From NCBI GenBank assembly GCA_025698895.1, contig JAILWO010000003.1, positions 434,001 through 498,000 on the forward strand: a DNA stretch of 64,000 nucleotides, given 5' to 3'. Each line of letters begins with the position of its first letter. Position 1 is the stretch's first letter. The notes under the pieces were generated by a model, which searched no databases, was not told the origin of the DNA, and saw only the letters and a program-made list of their open reading frames with translations. Shown one piece after another: positions 46,276 through 52,631 of the stretch. A program made the translations under genes and the position numbers. The DNA is from Rhizobiaceae bacterium (lineage in GTDB: Bacteria; Pseudomonadota; Alphaproteobacteria; Rhizobiales; Rhizobiaceae).

Positions 46276-47265
46276 ATGAGCGCCGTGCACGCCCCCGTCG
46301 TCATCATCGGCTCCGGCCCGGCCGGCTACACGGCCGCCATCTACGCCGCGCGCGCCATGCTCAAGCCCGTCCTGATCGCCGGCCTGCAGCAGGGTGGACA
46401 GCTCACCATCACCACCGATGTCGAGAACTATCCGGGCTTCGCCGATCCGATCCAAGGCCCGTGGCTGATGGAGCAGATGCTCAAGCAGGCCGAACATGTC
46501 GGCACGACCATCGTCAACGACCTCGTCACGGCGGTCGATCTCGACCACCGCCCCTTCACGCTCACCTGCGATTCGGGCGCGGTCTATACCTGCGACGCGC
46601 TGGTCATCGCCACCGGCGCCCAGGCCAAATGGCTCGGCGTGCCGGGCGAGCAGGACTATATGGGCTTCGGTGTTTCGGCCTGCGCCACCTGCGACGGCTT
46701 CTTCTATCGCAACAAGGACGTCGTGGTGGTCGGCGGCGGCAACACCGCCGTCGAGGAGGCCCTTTATCTCTCCAACCTGGCCAGATCGGTCACGGTCGTG
46801 CACCGTCGCGACGAGTTTCGCGCCGAACGCATCCTGCAGGAGCGGCTGTTCGCGAAGGACAATATCCATGTCCTGTGGAACACGGTGGTGGACGAGATCG
46901 TCGGCAAGCCCGCCAAGCTGCCGCTGCCGGCCTCGGCCACCGGCCTCAGGCTGCGCGATACGGTGACCGGCGAGATATCCGAGCATGAAACCGACGGCGT
47001 CTTCGTCGCGATCGGGCACGCGCCGGCGGTCGAGCTTTTCAAGGGCAAGCTGAAGCAGAAGCCGAACGGCTATCTATGGACCGCGCCCGACTCCACGAAG
47101 ACCGATATCGAGGGCGTCTTCGCGGCGGGCGACGTGACCGACGACATCTATCGCCAGGCGGTGACCGCGGCCGGCCTGGGCTGCATGGCGGCGCTCGAGG
47201 CTGAGAAATATCTCGCAGAACGCGAGGCGCTTGAGAGTGCACAGACGCGCGAGGCCGCCGAATAG
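46276..47265 (+). CDS. trxB: Thioredoxin reductase
   Basis: 329 residues. FAD site GSGPAGYTAAIYAARA, NADPH site VGGGNTAVEEALYLSN, redox active CATC in SACATCDGFFYRNKDV and the second FAD motif GVFAAGDVTDDIYRQAVTAAG. Reduces thioredoxin with NADPH. ATG at 46276 after AAGGA. The divergent partner of lrp; lsrB lies 52 bases downstream, so the two may be co-transcribed. Confidence 0.95.
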   Translation: MSAVHAPVVIIGSGPAGYTAAIYAARAMLKPVLIAGLQQGGQLTITTDVENYPGFADPIQGPWLMEQMLKQAEHVGTTIVNDLVTAVDLDHRPFTLTCDSGAVYTCDALVIATGAQAKWLGVPGEQDYMGFGVSACATCDGFFYRNKDVVVVGGGNTAVEEALYLSNLARSVTVVHRRDEFRAERILQERLFAKDNIHVLWNTVVDEIVGKPAKLPLPASATGLRLRDTVTGEISEHETDGVFVAIGHAPAVELFKGKLKQKPNGYLWTAPDSTKTDIEGVFAAGDVTDDIYRQAVTAAGLGCMAALEAEKYLAEREALESAQTREAAE

Positions 47266-47317
47266 ATCACGGCCGCCGCGACAAGCGGCGACAATGAACG
47301 GCGCTCGAGGGGAACGC

Positions 47318-48214
47318 ATGGCGCTCGATTGGGACAAGTTACGCGTGTTTCATGCCGCGGCCGAGGCCGGGTCGTTCACGCACGCGGCCGAGTCCTTGAA
47401 ACTCTCGCAATCGGCCATTTCCCGGCAGGTCAGCGCGCTGGAGCAGGATGTCGGCGTGCCGCTGTTCCATCGACACGCGCGCGGCCTGGTGCTGACCGAG
47501 CAGGGGGAGATTCTCTACCGGACCGCGCATGACGTCCTCATGAAGCTCGAGAACGTGCGCGTGCGGCTGACTGAGGCCAAGGACCTGCCGTCGGGGTCGC
47601 TGCGCGTCACCACCACTGTCGGGCTAGGCTCGGGCTGGCTCACCGAGCGCATCCAGGAGTTCCTCGACCTCTATCCCGACATCCAGCTCCAGCTCATCCT
47701 TGCCAACGAGGAACTGGACCTGACCATGCGCCAGGCCGATTGCGCCATACGCCTGCGTCAGCCGCAGCAGCCGGACCTGATCCAGCGCCGGCTGTTCACC
47801 GTCCATTTCCACCTCTACGCCTCGCCCGGCTACATCGCCAAGCACGGCAGGCCGTCCTCGATCGCGGATCTCGACAATCACCGCATCGTCACCTTCGGCG
47901 AACCCGTGCCTGGCCATCTGGCCGACATGAATTGGCTGGAGACGGCCGGCAGGCCCGAAGGTTCGAAGCGGCTGGCCAACCTCCAGATCAACAACATATT
48001 GTCGATCAAGGTGGCGGTGCAGCGCGGGGCGGGCATCGCGATGCTGCCCGACTACATGGTCGAGAAGGATTCGGGCCTCGTCCAGCTCATGCCCGAAACC
48101 GCGGTCCCGTCTTTCGACACCTATTTCGCCTATCCCGACACGATGCGAAATCAGGTCCGGCTGCACGTATTCCGCGATTTCCTCATCGCCAAGGCACGAA
48201 GCTGGGCCTATTGA
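47318..48214 (+). CDS. lsrB: LysR-family regulator LsrB-like
   Basis: 298 residues. Helix-turn-helix at 9-50 (KLRVFHAAAEAGSFTHAAESLKLSQSAISRQVSALE, in part) and a LysR substrate domain with VTTTVGLGSGWLTERI. It sits after trxB exactly where LsrB, a redox-related regulator of LPS and oxidative stress genes in Sinorhizobium, is found. The protein has one Cys only (Cys142). ATG at 47318; a GAGGGGAACG stands before it. Confidence 0.85.
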   Translation: MALDWDKLRVFHAAAEAGSFTHAAESLKLSQSAISRQVSALEQDVGVPLFHRHARGLVLTEQGEILYRTAHDVLMKLENVRVRLTEAKDLPSGSLRVTTTVGLGSGWLTERIQEFLDLYPDIQLQLILANEELDLTMRQADCAIRLRQPQQPDLIQRRLFTVHFHLYASPGYIAKHGRPSSIADLDNHRIVTFGEPVPGHLADMNWLETAGRPEGSKRLANLQINNILSIKVAVQRGAGIAMLPDYMVEKDSGLVQLMPETAVPSFDTYFAYPDTMRNQVRLHVFRDFLIAKARSWAY

Positions 48215-48269
48215 TATTGCTTGGTTTTCGCGCAGGAGGGCGCGGCAAGTGCGGGCATCTGCCCGACCC

Positions 48270-48284
48270 ATGCAGTAATTGCAT
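48270..48284. promoter_or_regulatory. Inverted repeat upstream of the sRNA promoter
   Basis: ATGCA-GTAAT-TGCAT is a perfect 5-base inverted repeat, about 60 bases upstream of the likely start of the mmgR-like RNA and 55 bases after the lsrB stop. It has the spacing of a regulator binding site; the protein is unknown. Confidence 0.35.
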
Positions 48285-48306
48285 AGGGGGTGTGCAATGG
48301 TGACGC

Positions 48307-48336
48307 TTGATTATGCAGTCCTCGGCGACCATATCA
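48307..48336 (+). promoter_or_regulatory. Candidate sigma-70 promoter of the mmgR-like sRNA
   Basis: TTGATT (48307-48312) and ATATCA (48331-48336) at 18 bases spacing fit the alphaproteobacterial housekeeping promoter and place the transcript start near 48342, just before the first hairpin. Confidence 0.45.
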
Positions 48337-48341
48337 CGGTC

Positions 48342-48457
48342 ATCTCCTCGGCGCGTTTCTCCTCCCATTAGCGCCGGTGAGTGTTCCCCTCTGGAGGTTC
48401 AGCCTTTTTAGGCACTTCCATTCAACTCAGCCGGGTCCTTGCGGATCCGGCTTTTTT
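48342..48457 (+). ncRNA. mmgR: mmgR-like small RNA (alpha-r14/suhB type)
   Basis: Three stem-loops and a terminator in about 115 bases. Hairpin 1: CGGCGC (48349-48354) pairs with GCGCCG (48371-48376); its 16-base loop holds CTCCTCCC, an anti-Shine-Dalgarno sequence. Hairpin 2 (around GCCT-TTTT-AGGC near 48402-48413) carries CTCTGGAGG upstream. Hairpin 3, GCCGGGTCC-TTGC-GGATCCGGC (48430-48451) followed by T6, is an intrinsic terminator. I recognise this layout and its place after lsrB as those of the mmgR/suhB sRNA, from memory; exact ends are not known. Confidence 0.7.
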
Positions 48458-48617
48458 GTTGCCCGCTCGAAGATCAGGGGTTGTAACCCTCGCGTTACCT
48501 GCCGTTACCTGCGCAGGCGAGCGCATCCATGCCAATGGAAGAACAAGGACGCGGCTTCGCCAGGTCCGGTTCGAGTGGGGGCACTCGGAGCGGACCGGCG
48601 CGGGCCGCGTTCGGCCG

Positions 48618-50669
48618 TCAGGCTGCCTTGCCGTGCGACTGGATCGCCTCATCGGCCAGCCGGCCGCTGAGTTCGGCCATGTGGTCGAAGCGGGCCTTGA
48701 AGTTGGCCACGCCGGCCGTCGCCGAGCGCAGTTCCACGATCAGGCTGCCGATCGAGGCCTGTGGCATCATCGCCTCCACGACATCCCAGCCCGGCCAGCC
48801 GGGCCGAGCATCGAAGCCGAGGATCTGTCCGCGCCTTTGCGGCACGATCGCCGTTACCTTCGCCGTGGCATCGGACGGCGTGGCGATCTCCACCTTCATC
48901 ATCGGTTCCAGCAGGATCGGCTGGGCCTGCGCCATCGCCTCCTTCATGGCCAGTCGCGCTGCCATCTGGAATGCCATGTCGGAACTGTCGACCGAATGGT
49001 AGGAGCCGTCGGACAGGTTGACCGCGATGTCGACGACGGGGAAGCCGAAGGGGCCGCTCTTGAGATAGTCGCGCACGCCCGCTTCGACCGAGGGAATGTA
49101 CTGCTTGGGGACCACACCGCCGGTGATCGTATCGGTGAACTCGAAGCCCGAGCCGCGTGGACGTGGCTTGATCTCCAGCACGACGTCGCCGAACTGCCCG
49201 TGTCCGCCGGACTGCTTCTTATGGCGGCCGCGCTGGGTCGCCGGTTTGCGGATCGTCTCGCGGTAGGGCACGACCGGATCGTGGGCCTCGACCGGAATCT
49301 GGTATTTGCCTTCCAGCCGCTCGATCGTAACGCGCAGATGCATCTCGCCATGGCCCGACAGCAATGTCTCGCCGGTGTCCTGGTTCTGCTCCAGAAGCAG
49401 CGACGGGTCTTCCTCGCAGAGCCTGGCCAGCGCTGCCGACAACCTCACCTCGTCCTTGCGTTCGCGCGGCCTAAGCGCGGTCGCCACAACGGGATAGGGC
49501 CGTTCAGGCTCGATCAGCGGCTTCGGCGTGGACTTGCCGGTGGCTACCGTCTCGCCGGTCGTAACACCTTCCAGCTTACCCAGTGCGACTGTGTCTCCGG
49601 CCGAGGCCGAAGCGAGCTTGGTCTGGTCCTTGCCCATCATCGCATAGAGGCCCGACACGCGCTCGGTCTTGCCGGATGATGCGATGATTTCCGCCCCGTC
49701 GGCGATTTTACCCGACAGGATGCGCGCGACCGACAGCTTGCCGCCGTGCGGGGTGTGGATCGTCTTCATCACATGGGCGAGGAAGTCGCCGCTGTCGGCC
49801 ACGCCCATGCGCTCGCGCGTCTCGGCCACGTCAGGCGCGTCATGCCGGATCGCCTTCAGCAGGCGCAGCACGCCATTGCCCTTCTCGGCCGTACCGATCA
49901 GCACAGGGGTGACGGCGCCGTCGCGCAGGTCGGCGCCGAGATCGTCGAAGACGGCATCCCGCGGCGGCTCGATCTCGGTCAGGAGTTGTTCCATCAACTC
50001 GTCGTCGTGATCGGCGAGCGTCTCCAGCATGGAAAAGCGCGCCTCGATCTCGCGCGCCTTGTCGTCGTCTGGAATGGCCGCGATCTCGCTGGCGGCATGC
50101 TCGCGCCAGACATAGGCACGCTCCAGCGCCAGGTCGATCGAGCCGACCACCACGCCGTCCTTGCGTAACGGGATCTGGCGCAGCAGCAACGGCGTCTGGC
50201 TGGCCGGCTGCAGGAGCTTCAGCGTGTCACGGACGCCCGCGCCGATCCGGTCGACCTTGTTGAGGAACAACATGCGGGGGATACCGCGCTCCTCGAGCTG
50301 GCGCATGATGAGCTGAAGGGCCGGTATCTTCTTCTCGTCCGCCTCGGCCACGACGACCGCCAGGTCGCAGCCGGTCAACACGGCCTCCGCCTCGAACGCG
50401 AACTCGATCGAGCCGGGACAATCGATGAAGGTGATCTGCTCGCCCATGAACTCGGCCGTGGCGATGCTCGCCTCGACGCTCATCTGGTGGGCGCGGGCCT
50501 CGGGACTATGATCCCCGACGGTGTTGCCTGACGTCACCGTGCTCTGTCGCGGGATGGCGTCCATGCGCGCCAGAAGCGCTTCCAGCAGTGTCGTCTTGCC
50601 GCTTGCGAAGGGACCGACAATGGCAATGCATTTCGGCCCCGTGCGTCTGTCTCCGGCGCGTCGTCCCAT
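48618..50669 (-). CDS. EF-G-like protein with degenerate GTPase motifs
   Basis: 683 residues with all EF-G domains; domain IV-V (GYHSVDSSDMAFQMAARLAMKEA; LEPMMKVEIATPSDATAKV) match EF-G. Yet the GTPase centre differs: P-loop GPFASGKT at 19-26 instead of AHIDAGKT, switch I HQMSV instead of RGITI, and DCPGSIEF at 83-90 where EF-G has DTPGHVDF, losing the catalytic His. NKVD (137-140) is kept, so GTP may still bind. Some second EF-G copies bind GTP without ribosome-dependent hydrolysis. Function open; ribosome association is an inference. Confidence 0.88.
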   Translation of the reverse strand: MGRRAGDRRTGPKCIAIVGPFASGKTTLLEALLARMDAIPRQSTVTSGNTVGDHSPEARAHQMSVEASIATAEFMGEQITFIDCPGSIEFAFEAEAVLTGCDLAVVVAEADEKKIPALQLIMRQLEERGIPRMLFLNKVDRIGAGVRDTLKLLQPASQTPLLLRQIPLRKDGVVVGSIDLALERAYVWREHAASEIAAIPDDDKAREIEARFSMLETLADHDDELMEQLLTEIEPPRDAVFDDLGADLRDGAVTPVLIGTAEKGNGVLRLLKAIRHDAPDVAETRERMGVADSGDFLAHVMKTIHTPHGGKLSVARILSGKIADGAEIIASSGKTERVSGLYAMMGKDQTKLASASAGDTVALGKLEGVTTGETVATGKSTPKPLIEPERPYPVVATALRPRERKDEVRLSAALARLCEEDPSLLLEQNQDTGETLLSGHGEMHLRVTIERLEGKYQIPVEAHDPVVPYRETIRKPATQRGRHKKQSGGHGQFGDVVLEIKPRPRGSGFEFTDTITGGVVPKQYIPSVEAGVRDYLKSGPFGFPVVDIAVNLSDGSYHSVDSSDMAFQMAARLAMKEAMAQAQPILLEPMMKVEIATPSDATAKVTAIVPQRRGQILGFDARPGWPGWDVVEAMMPQASIGSLIVELRSATAGVANFKARFDHMAELSGRLADEAIQSHGKAA

Positions 50670-50867: not shown

Positions 50868-51686
50868 ATGCATGTGAGGGAACACCCAGCCGCGATCTCG
50901 CTGGAACGGCGTTCCGACGGAAGTGCCGTCGCGCTGTTCGACGGGTGCGAACTCATGTCCGCCTTTCAGCCCATATGGGCGTTTCCGGCGACCGACAAAC
51001 GACCCCAGCCGGTCGCCGCCGTCGCCTATGAGGGTCTGCTGCGCGTCGTCGGCGAGCGGGGAGAGGTCTCCCCCAAGGCATTTCTCTCCGGCCTCGTGCC
51101 GGACATGCGGGCGCGCGTCGAGACGGTGTCGCGCGCGCTCCATCTGATCAACGCGGCAGTCAGCCTTCCGGAGGAGGCGCTGGTCTTCGTCAATATCGAC
51201 CCGTCGCTGGTCGACGGCCCGCGAGCGGTCGCCCGCATCTTGCGCGAGATGCGCCTTGCGCTGCGCGAGTCCGAGCTGCCCGCCGCTCGCGTCGTGTGCG
51301 AACTGACAGAGCAGCCGGCGGGAAGCGATGCCGCGCTTGCCGAGCTGGCCGCCGCCTTGCGTGTCCAGGGGCACCGCATCGCGGTCGACGACTATGGTGC
51401 GCAAGCTTCGGACGCCGCCCGCGTCGATCTCGTCGGGCCCGACATCGTCAAGTTCGACGCCGACTGGATCCGCAGGCACATGGACAGCCCGGCCGGCTTC
51501 GCCCTGCTTGTGGACCTCGTGGAACGTCTGGCCGCGCGCGACATCGCCACCGTATTCGAGGGCATGGAGGAGGGCTGGCAGATCGAGCTTGCTGAACGCG
51601 CGGGCGCCACCATGGTCCAGGGCTATGGTCTCGCGCGTCCCGCCATCGCCGCTGCACGGGATCGCGGCGCGGTTCCGCGGCGATAG
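50868..51686 (+). CDS. EAL-domain c-di-GMP phosphodiesterase, complete motifs
   Basis: 272 residues, EAL domain alone with no sensor or GGDEF. The catalytic set is present: YEGLLR (EAL variant), NID in VFVNIDPSL, CELTEQ, VDDYG, VKFD and FEGMEE, then VQGYG near the end. Loop 6 reads DDYGAQASD instead of DDFGTGYSS, so activity may be changed. Should hydrolyse c-di-GMP. Followed 103 bases later by a degenerate sister gene on the same strand. Confidence 0.82.
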   Translation: MHVREHPAAISLERRSDGSAVALFDGCELMSAFQPIWAFPATDKRPQPVAAVAYEGLLRVVGERGEVSPKAFLSGLVPDMRARVETVSRALHLINAAVSLPEEALVFVNIDPSLVDGPRAVARILREMRLALRESELPAARVVCELTEQPAGSDAALAELAAALRVQGHRIAVDDYGAQASDAARVDLVGPDIVKFDADWIRRHMDSPAGFALLVDLVERLAARDIATVFEGMEEGWQIELAERAGATMVQGYGLARPAIAAARDRGAVPRR

Positions 51687-51788: not shown

Positions 51789-52631
51789 ATGCCTGAACAA
51801 GGCGCAATCGACAAACTGATCATCCATGATGAGATCGGCCTTGCCTCCGGTCTCCTGGACGACGTCCGCATTCGCAGTGTCTATCGCACGGTTTTCGCAC
51901 GCAGGGGCGAGTTTCTCCTGCCCGTTGCAATCGAGGCGAGCGCCGTGCCGACTCGGCAAGCGTTGCCGCTCGAGCCGCGCGCCTTTCTTGCCGGGCTCGA
52001 TCCGGTCAGACGGGATGCCGCCGCGCACCTGGCGACGTGTCTGGCGATCGCCAATTTCGCCCTGCTCGACAATCCTTCCCTGCCGCTGGTCGTCAACGTC
52101 TTTCCCCGGTGGATCGTCGCCTTTGACCCGTTTCTCGCCGACATAGGACGTTATGCCGGCGAAGCCGGGCTGGACCCTCGCGGCATAATCTTCTCGGTCA
52201 ACACTGCCGGCGCGGTCGATCCGGCCGTTCTCGTCACCTTCACGAACGCCATGCGGTCGAGGGGCGCGTCCATCGCCTTCGACGACTTCGATGCCGGCGA
52301 ATCCTCGCTCGCTTTGGTTCGTCAGGTTCGTCCGAGCTGGGTCGGCATCGAGGCGTCGCGCTTTGCTCACCTCGATGCCGCGCCGGCCGGGCGTGCGCTG
52401 CTTGCATCGATGACAGGTGGCCTCCGGGAACTTGGCGCGACGCCGTTCGCAGGCGGGATCGATTCTCCCGCGCTGCTCGACTTCATGCTGTCCAGCGGGA
52501 TTCGCCACGTGCGCGGCGATCTTTTCGGCAAGCCGGTGGGCGCGGGCGAATTCGTCCTGCCTGGCCCGCATGCGACAAGCCGGTTCGGTGGTGGGCGCTC
52601 GAACGTTCATCCACTGCGCGCGGTGCATTGA
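51789..52631 (+). CDS. Degenerate EAL-like protein
   Basis: 280 residues with the EAL fold but lost active site: AIEASAV replaces the EAL motif, FSVNTAG replaces ELTE, VGIEASRF lacks the catalytic Lys, FAGGIDS lacks the Glu of EGVE, and HVRGDLF lacks the Gln. Only the FDDFDAGESS loop remains. Such proteins usually sense or bind rather than degrade c-di-GMP. The pairing with the intact gene suggests partner functions; not proven. Confidence 0.75.
   Translation: MPEQGAIDKLIIHDEIGLASGLLDDVRIRSVYRTVFARRGEFLLPVAIEASAVPTRQALPLEPRAFLAGLDPVRRDAAAHLATCLAIANFALLDNPSLPLVVNVFPRWIVAFDPFLADIGRYAGEAGLDPRGIIFSVNTAGAVDPAVLVTFTNAMRSRGASIAFDDFDAGESSLALVRQVRPSWVGIEASRFAHLDAAPAGRALLASMTGGLRELGATPFAGGIDSPALLDFMLSSGIRHVRGDLFGKPVGAGEFVLPGPHATSRFGGGRSNVHPLRAVH

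Follow-up and report, generated by a model that had tools for sequence, protein, structure and literature searches.

The stretch of DNA considered here (64,000 nucleotides, hereafter the window) comes from a Rhizobiaceae bacterium close to Aquamicrobium, and its centre of interest is a short intergenic segment behind two genes on the plus strand. The first, a trxB-like gene (46276–47265), is an open reading frame encoding a pyridine nucleotide-disulphide oxidoreductase of 329 aa with a PF07992 domain, and the second, lsrB (also named vtlR; 47318–48214), encodes a LysR-type regulator of 298 aa with PF00126 and PF03466 domains. The two are separated by a 52-nt gap and probably form one operon, as has been described for trxB-lsrB in Rhizobiales (PMC11975290). 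Among named genomes, the nearest LsrB proteins come from Aquamicrobium, Mesorhizobium and related Rhizobiaceae, the best being that of Aquamicrobium sp. LC103 at 89% identity, and the top match in the PDB is 9hh1 (E 1.7e-142), the structure of LsrB from A. tumefaciens (PMC11975290). Downstream of lsrB lies a small RNA (sRNA) gene of about 116 nt on the plus strand (48342–48457, start inferred), followed by a convergent gene resembling that for EF-G, so that the order reads trxB-lsrB-sRNA. An open frame of 432 aa on the plus strand (48381–49679) overlaps the sRNA, runs antisense to the EF-G-like gene and is probably an artefact of high G+C. Farther along, two consecutive plus-strand genes (50868–51686 and 51789–52631; 272 and 280 aa) both carry EAL domains and thus make up a pair of cyclic-di-GMP-type signalling genes.

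The LsrB protein of the window has a single cysteine, C142, which aligns with C144 of the A. tumefaciens protein, and carries alanine at residue 271 where A. tumefaciens has C273. Substitution of C273 in A. tumefaciens LsrB is reported to increase sensitivity to peroxide (PMC11975290). This position is cysteine in 41 and alanine in 40 of the 81 LsrB proteins compared, so redox sensing by a cysteine pair may vary within the group.

The segment 48342–48457 matches the Rfam family ar15 (RF02345), the family of the AbcR sRNAs, with 44.9 bits, narrowly over the gathering cut-off of 40, and an E value of 6.2e-06 for the whole window, in which it is the sole Rfam match above cut-off. Two further marks of AbcR are its position after lsrB and the linker motif UUCCCCUC, discussed below. 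Searched with a model of 45 sequences, that of the window among them, the bacterium's own genome yields one copy (119.8 bits); no second ar15 copy, which is usual in the model species though not defining, was found in that genome. Single copies are also common elsewhere: an ar15 search of 61 genomes gave a match in 33, 24 of them with a single match, and the 45-sequence model matches at least 150 of 199 genomes of the family. On these sequence grounds we put the probability that 48342–48457 is an lsrB-linked AbcR (ar15) sRNA gene at about 90%. The identification itself is ordinary, adding one member to a known family.

A sequence-only reading of this DNA had correctly placed an sRNA gene directly after lsrB and had assigned it to an "alpha-r14/mmgR (suhB)" family linked to polyhydroxybutyrate control. 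That label merges separate families, as MmgR (77 nt) is alpha-r8, AbcR1/2 are alpha-r15 and NfeR1 is Smr14C2 (PMC7143759). The search with the suhB model that the same reading had proposed as a check (RF00519, titled 'Makes More Granules Regulator RNA (mmgR)' in Rfam) returned 32.9 bits at the sRNA locus, below the cut-off of 41, and the ar14/NfeR1 model (RF02344) returned 21.3 bits there, below 58.8. Elsewhere in the genome the suhB/mmgR model has a match over cut-off, at C1:139945 (63.9 bits), and the ar14 model has three, all away from the sRNA locus. Two of these overlap on the same strand at C2:1130433–1130637, which suggests a repeated hairpin unit in that ar14 locus. The length of the sRNA from inferred start to terminator, about 116 nt, is not the approximately 77 nt of mmgR (PMC7143759), and the motif CTCCTCCC occurs once in the gene, whereas NfeR1 has three identical anti-Shine-Dalgarno motifs (PMC8844928). 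That the sRNA is an mmgR/suhB or ar14 (NfeR1) RNA tuning polyhydroxybutyrate storage or nitrogen metabolism is thus rejected as a family assignment by the curated Rfam cut-offs and is very improbable as a reading, since the sub-threshold suhB score, the loop CUCCUCCC common to these families and the single Rfam clan that unites suhB with ar15 are set against failing scores, full matches at other loci and a linker and position that mark AbcR. Because the family is AbcR, the link to polyhydroxybutyrate does not carry over.

The predicted fold of 48340–48457 has the three hairpins that had been noticed in the bare sequence, with a minimum free energy of -48.6 kcal/mol against a mean of -29.79 for shuffled sequences (z -6.09; 0 of 200 shuffles as low). 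Stem-loop 1 (48341–48383), whose outermost pair falls one base ahead of the inferred start, exposes CTCCTCCC at 48359–48366 in its loop (48355–48370), as had been pointed out; this is the first anti-Shine-Dalgarno motif, aSD1 (CUCCUCCC). It is followed by the linker with the second, aSD2 or M2 (UUCCCCUC, 48384–48391), by stem-loop 2 (48392–48420), for which covariation is weak, and by an intrinsic terminator with its U tail (48429–48457), all on the plus strand. The terminator, described earlier as perfect, is present and nearly so: its stem (48429–48452) comprises 10 pairs, including one G-U, and a T-run follows. By count it is unremarkable, as a simple scan of 48100–48600 finds one terminator-like site against 0.8 expected from shuffled sequences.

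Conservation of this fold was assessed in an alignment of 45 sequences, composed of the window and 44 relatives' rows picked by hand from 71 distinct ones. Those 71 rows were required to hold both the loop and the linker motif, so the invariance of the motifs within the alignment is uninformative; selection by the loop motif only, however, gives 46 sequences, and all 46 have the linker TGTTCCCCTCTGGAG. The three-hairpin structure keeps 93.8% of the alignment cells paired, and 48 cells are changed on both sides, where shuffles average 14.4 and none of 500 attains 48. Kinship of the rows weakens the shuffle test, but a slide control, in which shifted partners reduce pairing to 45.0% or less, gives the same answer. 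Most of the covariation comes from the first hairpin and the terminator, and a consensus based on energy and covariation favours another pairing for the middle hairpin.

Loop and linker motifs occur together downstream of lsrB in 76 of 80 named lsrB loci, within 700 bases in 45 and at 0.7 kb or more, up to 2.6 kb, in 31, and each genome of the remaining four loci has one match to the model. In Mesorhizobium sp. L-8-3, three AbcR copies stand in tandem after lsrB (L049, 3996–4676). For M. huakuii 7653R, AbcR1/2 have been reported as not discovered (PMC5596092).

Directly upstream of the sRNA lies a plus-strand region with the features of an LsrB-dependent promoter. The repeat ATGCA-N5-TGCAT, located exactly at 48270–48284 as had been read from the sequence (-72 to -58), equals TGCA-N6-GCAT (T-N11-A) and would form the distal half of an LsrB operator. 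The sequence-only reading took this repeat to be undescribed, but TGCA-N6-GCAT is a published LsrB-binding motif: gel shifts and reporter assays show that LsrB requires it at the nfeR1 promoter of S. meliloti, and its close resemblance to the LsrB site in the abcR1 promoter has been noted (PMC10746234). The accompanying proposal that the repeat sets expression of the sRNA is probable. It overlaps an AbcR1-type LsrB box, GCAT-N3-TG-N3-T (48281–48293, -61 to -49), which has one mismatch (T8 to G). The abcR1 box of S. meliloti occupies -61 to -49, and an abcR1 promoter without the LsrB motif loses more than 22-fold of its activity (PMC8844928). The start at 48342 follows from setting the first base of the window's box at -61, and is the same as the first base of the ar15 match. 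Because one of the fixed positions of the published consensus is not kept in the window's box, how strongly LsrB binds there is uncertain. The box is followed by sigma-70-like elements, a -35 CTTGAT (48306–48311) and, after 17 nt, a -10 CCATAT (48329–48334) or CATATC (48330–48335). The promoter spacer contains another copy of ATGCAGT (48313–48319), which follows the first at a distance of 43 bases; it may offer LsrB an additional contact close to the -35 element or be a chance occurrence.

These elements recur in relatives. Among 45 distinct promoters, namely that of the window and those of loci whose loop motif lies at most 700 bases away, the box-anchored footprint reads ATGC...TGCATgGGTGcatTGCAA, and CTTG-N20-CATAT is found in 30, in line with the earlier suggestion that the sRNA has a promoter of its own. 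The box GCAT-N3-TG-N3-T occurs in 38 of the 45, against 2.09 expected by shuffling. The distal motif with the exact N6 spacing is present in four, and the looser TGC(A/G)-N4-6-GCAT in 33, against 4.89 expected. When the relatives' extended box was searched in the whole 4.76-Mb genome, the best site was 48279–48297, with one mismatch, and 27 other sites had three, giving 28 matches at three or fewer mismatches as opposed to 15 for the reversed pattern. A generic scan for promoters of the E. coli type did not list this plus-strand promoter and listed one on the minus strand.

By analogy with relatives, LsrB, encoded directly upstream, would most likely bind the tandem TGCA half-sites at 48270–48297 and activate the sigma-70-type promoter, from which an RNA would most likely start near 48342. 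The abcR1 gene of S. meliloti is activated by LsrB, and in reporter assays the two anti-Shine-Dalgarno motifs of its sRNA repress transporter mRNAs by pairing at their start regions (PMC8844928). The RNA of the window exposes the corresponding two motifs in its predicted fold, CUCCUCCC in loop 1 and UUCCCCUC in the linker, and these are expected to pair with the start regions of mRNAs, mainly for transporters, and to lower their translation. It would be expected to work with Hfq, and an hfq gene was found in the genome. Transcription of the gene, its activation by LsrB, its use of Hfq and its silencing of targets are thus predicted from work in related species.

As suggested earlier, the loop could occlude Shine-Dalgarno sites. 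In the genome, GGGAGGAG stands 3–10 bases before an ATG at 44 distinct places (46 entries). An open reading frame of at least 100 aa begins at 37 of these 44 sites complementary to CUCCUCCC, which are accordingly candidate targets. Parts of transporters, picked by eye among the 37, number ten, and Pfam agreed for all ten: seven binding proteins, two permeases and one ATPase, where an NMT1-like protein is presumably a binding protein and is counted among the seven. Several sites with the exact GAGGGGAA before an ATG begin, as judged by eye, genes for enolase-like and other non-transporter proteins, so the regulon need not consist of transporters only.

One proposed target of the linker is the regulator itself. 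The ribosome-binding site of lsrB, GAGGGGAACGC (47307–47317, plus strand), forms 11 contiguous pairs with the linker, one of them G-U (-22.8 kcal/mol), and lsrB is one of 15 entries in a genome search for complements of the linker motif near start codons. In linker pairing it ranks first among 322 sampled genes with up to eight starts each, the next reaching -18.7; this sample came from a rough gene caller applied to 464 kb, window included, and part of the genes were missed. We therefore consider a conserved negative feedback, in which LsrB would activate the AbcR sRNA and the linker UUCCCCUC would pair with GAGGGGAACGC of lsrB, silencing its own activator. Such a loop would serve to keep both LsrB and the transporter regulon at a fixed level. 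As a prediction from sequence it is tentative, and we give it somewhat less than an even chance of being correct.

Comparison of leaders bears on this proposal. The search for leaders covered 111 sequences, the window and 110 loci, and placed those of lsrB in 103 (89 distinct), of trxB in 81 (78 distinct), of lrp in 81 (77 distinct) and of the EF-G-like gene in 24 (22 distinct). Only the unpaired segments of the sRNA were used for pairing, as long gapped duplexes swamp the signal when the whole sRNA is used. Exact GAGGGGAA occurs in 40 of the 89 distinct lsrB leaders, compared with 0/78 for trxB, 0/77 for lrp and 0/22 for the EF-G-like gene, and linker pairing of -12 kcal/mol or lower is reached by 80/89, 10/78, 7/77 and 4/22, respectively. 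None of 300 permutations of the 12-nt linker attains the observed mean pairing. The complementarity is strongest around Aquamicrobium, Mesorhizobium and Aminobacter and weaker in the rest of the family: in 107 family genomes, exact GAGGGGAA is found in 18 and -12 kcal/mol is reached in 75, while the leader pattern was unmatched in 92 of 199 genomes; it passes over leaders that have a T at 25 bases upstream, or that use different start codons or different codons. In the deepest group, with 13 distinct leaders, the exact 8-mer is found in none and -12 is reached by 11. Genomes with a listed sRNA near lsrB have leaders with a mean pairing of -14.43 (65 genomes), against -11.90 for those without (42 genomes; one-sided p 0.0055), a weak comparison because relatedness is ignored, the sRNA is counted among the matches listed and the 92 genomes outside the leader pattern drop out. 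Duplex energies of the whole sRNA were uninformative, with -39.4 for lsrB of the window (z -1.57) and z below -2 in 5/73 lsrB leaders (mean z -0.82), 4/74 trxB, 5/73 lrp and 0/22 EF-G-like leaders. The lsrB leader around the site is about as stable as its shuffles (z 0.35), which leaves the site open and shows no selected structure.

The match between linker and leader could also act in cis, if the segment chiefly served the trxB-lsrB mRNA as its 3' untranslated region and terminator, with the linker acting on the lsrB start and a free sRNA being secondary. The 11-pair match would suit such an arrangement, as would the fact that the only terminator-like site in 48100–48600 is that of the sRNA, leaving the interval from the lsrB stop (48214) to the sRNA free of such sites. 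This is nevertheless improbable, given the conserved promoter, with LsrB box and -35 and -10 elements, directly before the RNA, the distance of 0.7 kb or more, up to 2.6 kb, from lsrB to the RNA in 31 of 76 loci, and three loci (L039, L040 and L041) without the motif pair in 3 kb on either side of lsrB whose genomes each have one match.

A competitor of the feedback between AbcR and lsrB is that the G-rich ribosome-binding site of lsrB is simply an inherited Shine-Dalgarno variant, whose match to the linker is coincidental and regulates nothing; we regard the odds of this as even. The neighbouring genomes are related, so that counts among them are not independent, and the restriction of exact GAGGGGAA to 18/107 genomes, the 75/107 that reach -12 and the absence of the 8-mer from the deepest group are compatible with inheritance of a variant. 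Nor is linker pairing of -12 kcal/mol rare among the 322 background genes, where it is reached by 32 if the first start is used, by 53 if the start is chosen for the strongest pairing with 16S rRNA and by 79 if up to eight starts are tried and the best is kept. The lsrB leaders also pair better with the 16S tail (-10.06) than those of trxB (-7.51) and lrp (-5.73), and part of their G-richness is therefore that of a working ribosome site. On the other hand, leaders of the EF-G-like gene pair still better with the 16S tail (-16.93) and less well with the linker (-10.95, against -15.23 for lsrB), so strength of the Shine-Dalgarno sequence alone does not give linker pairing. The 80/89 lsrB leaders and 11/13 deep leaders that reach -12, and the 0/300 scrambled linkers, likewise argue against coincidence.

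A route of feedback other than the AbcR-lsrB loop is known, since for A. tumefaciens autoregulation of the trxB-lsrB operon by LsrB is reported, in a passage that names no sRNA (PMC11975290). In the text passages of the open-licence papers searched, we found no report of the lsrB leader as an AbcR target or of a loop between AbcR and lsrB. For S. meliloti, we take SMc01225 to be the locus tag of lsrB. This tag is absent from the main text of PMC8844928, which also makes no mention of feedback, autoregulation, lsrB mRNA or trxB.

In its known parts, the locus resembles established AbcR systems. It shares with S. meliloti AbcR1 (alpha-r15) the lsrB neighbour, the three hairpins, the CUCCUCCC loop and the UUCCCCUC linker (PMC8844928, PMC3712013), as well as the LsrB box at -61 to -49 and a sigma-70 signature (PMC8844928), while differing from the tandem abcR1-abcR2 of that species in the one copy found and in one position of the box. 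The gene order corresponds to the trxB-vtlR-abcR order of A. tumefaciens, where VtlR controls abcR1 directly and, unlike here, two tandem sRNAs, AbcR1 and AbcR2, are present (PMC7486931). The M1 CUCCCA and M2 GUUCCC motifs of Brucella AbcR1/2 are both present in the window, with one copy found here in place of the two AbcR sRNAs of Brucella (PMC5461406). NfeR1 (ar14) of S. meliloti has a comparable LsrB site, TGCA-N6-GCAT, between about -72 and -60, and feeds back on ntrBC, a regulator of its own promoter, offering a candidate parallel for the sRNA here; it belongs to another RNA family, however, and the object of its feedback is NtrBC, with NtrC as a repressor of NfeR1, rather than LsrB (PMC10746234).

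The identification corrects a wrong family name, and the feedback is a concrete prediction. Work in S. meliloti, A. tumefaciens and Brucella has addressed the LsrB/VtlR activator and the targets of AbcR, and feedback from AbcR onto lsrB is the part of the present analysis that may be new, the rest being of a known kind. If it is true, the sRNA of the AbcR system would also control the regulator that makes it, and the reading of both LsrB mutants and AbcR mutants would change.
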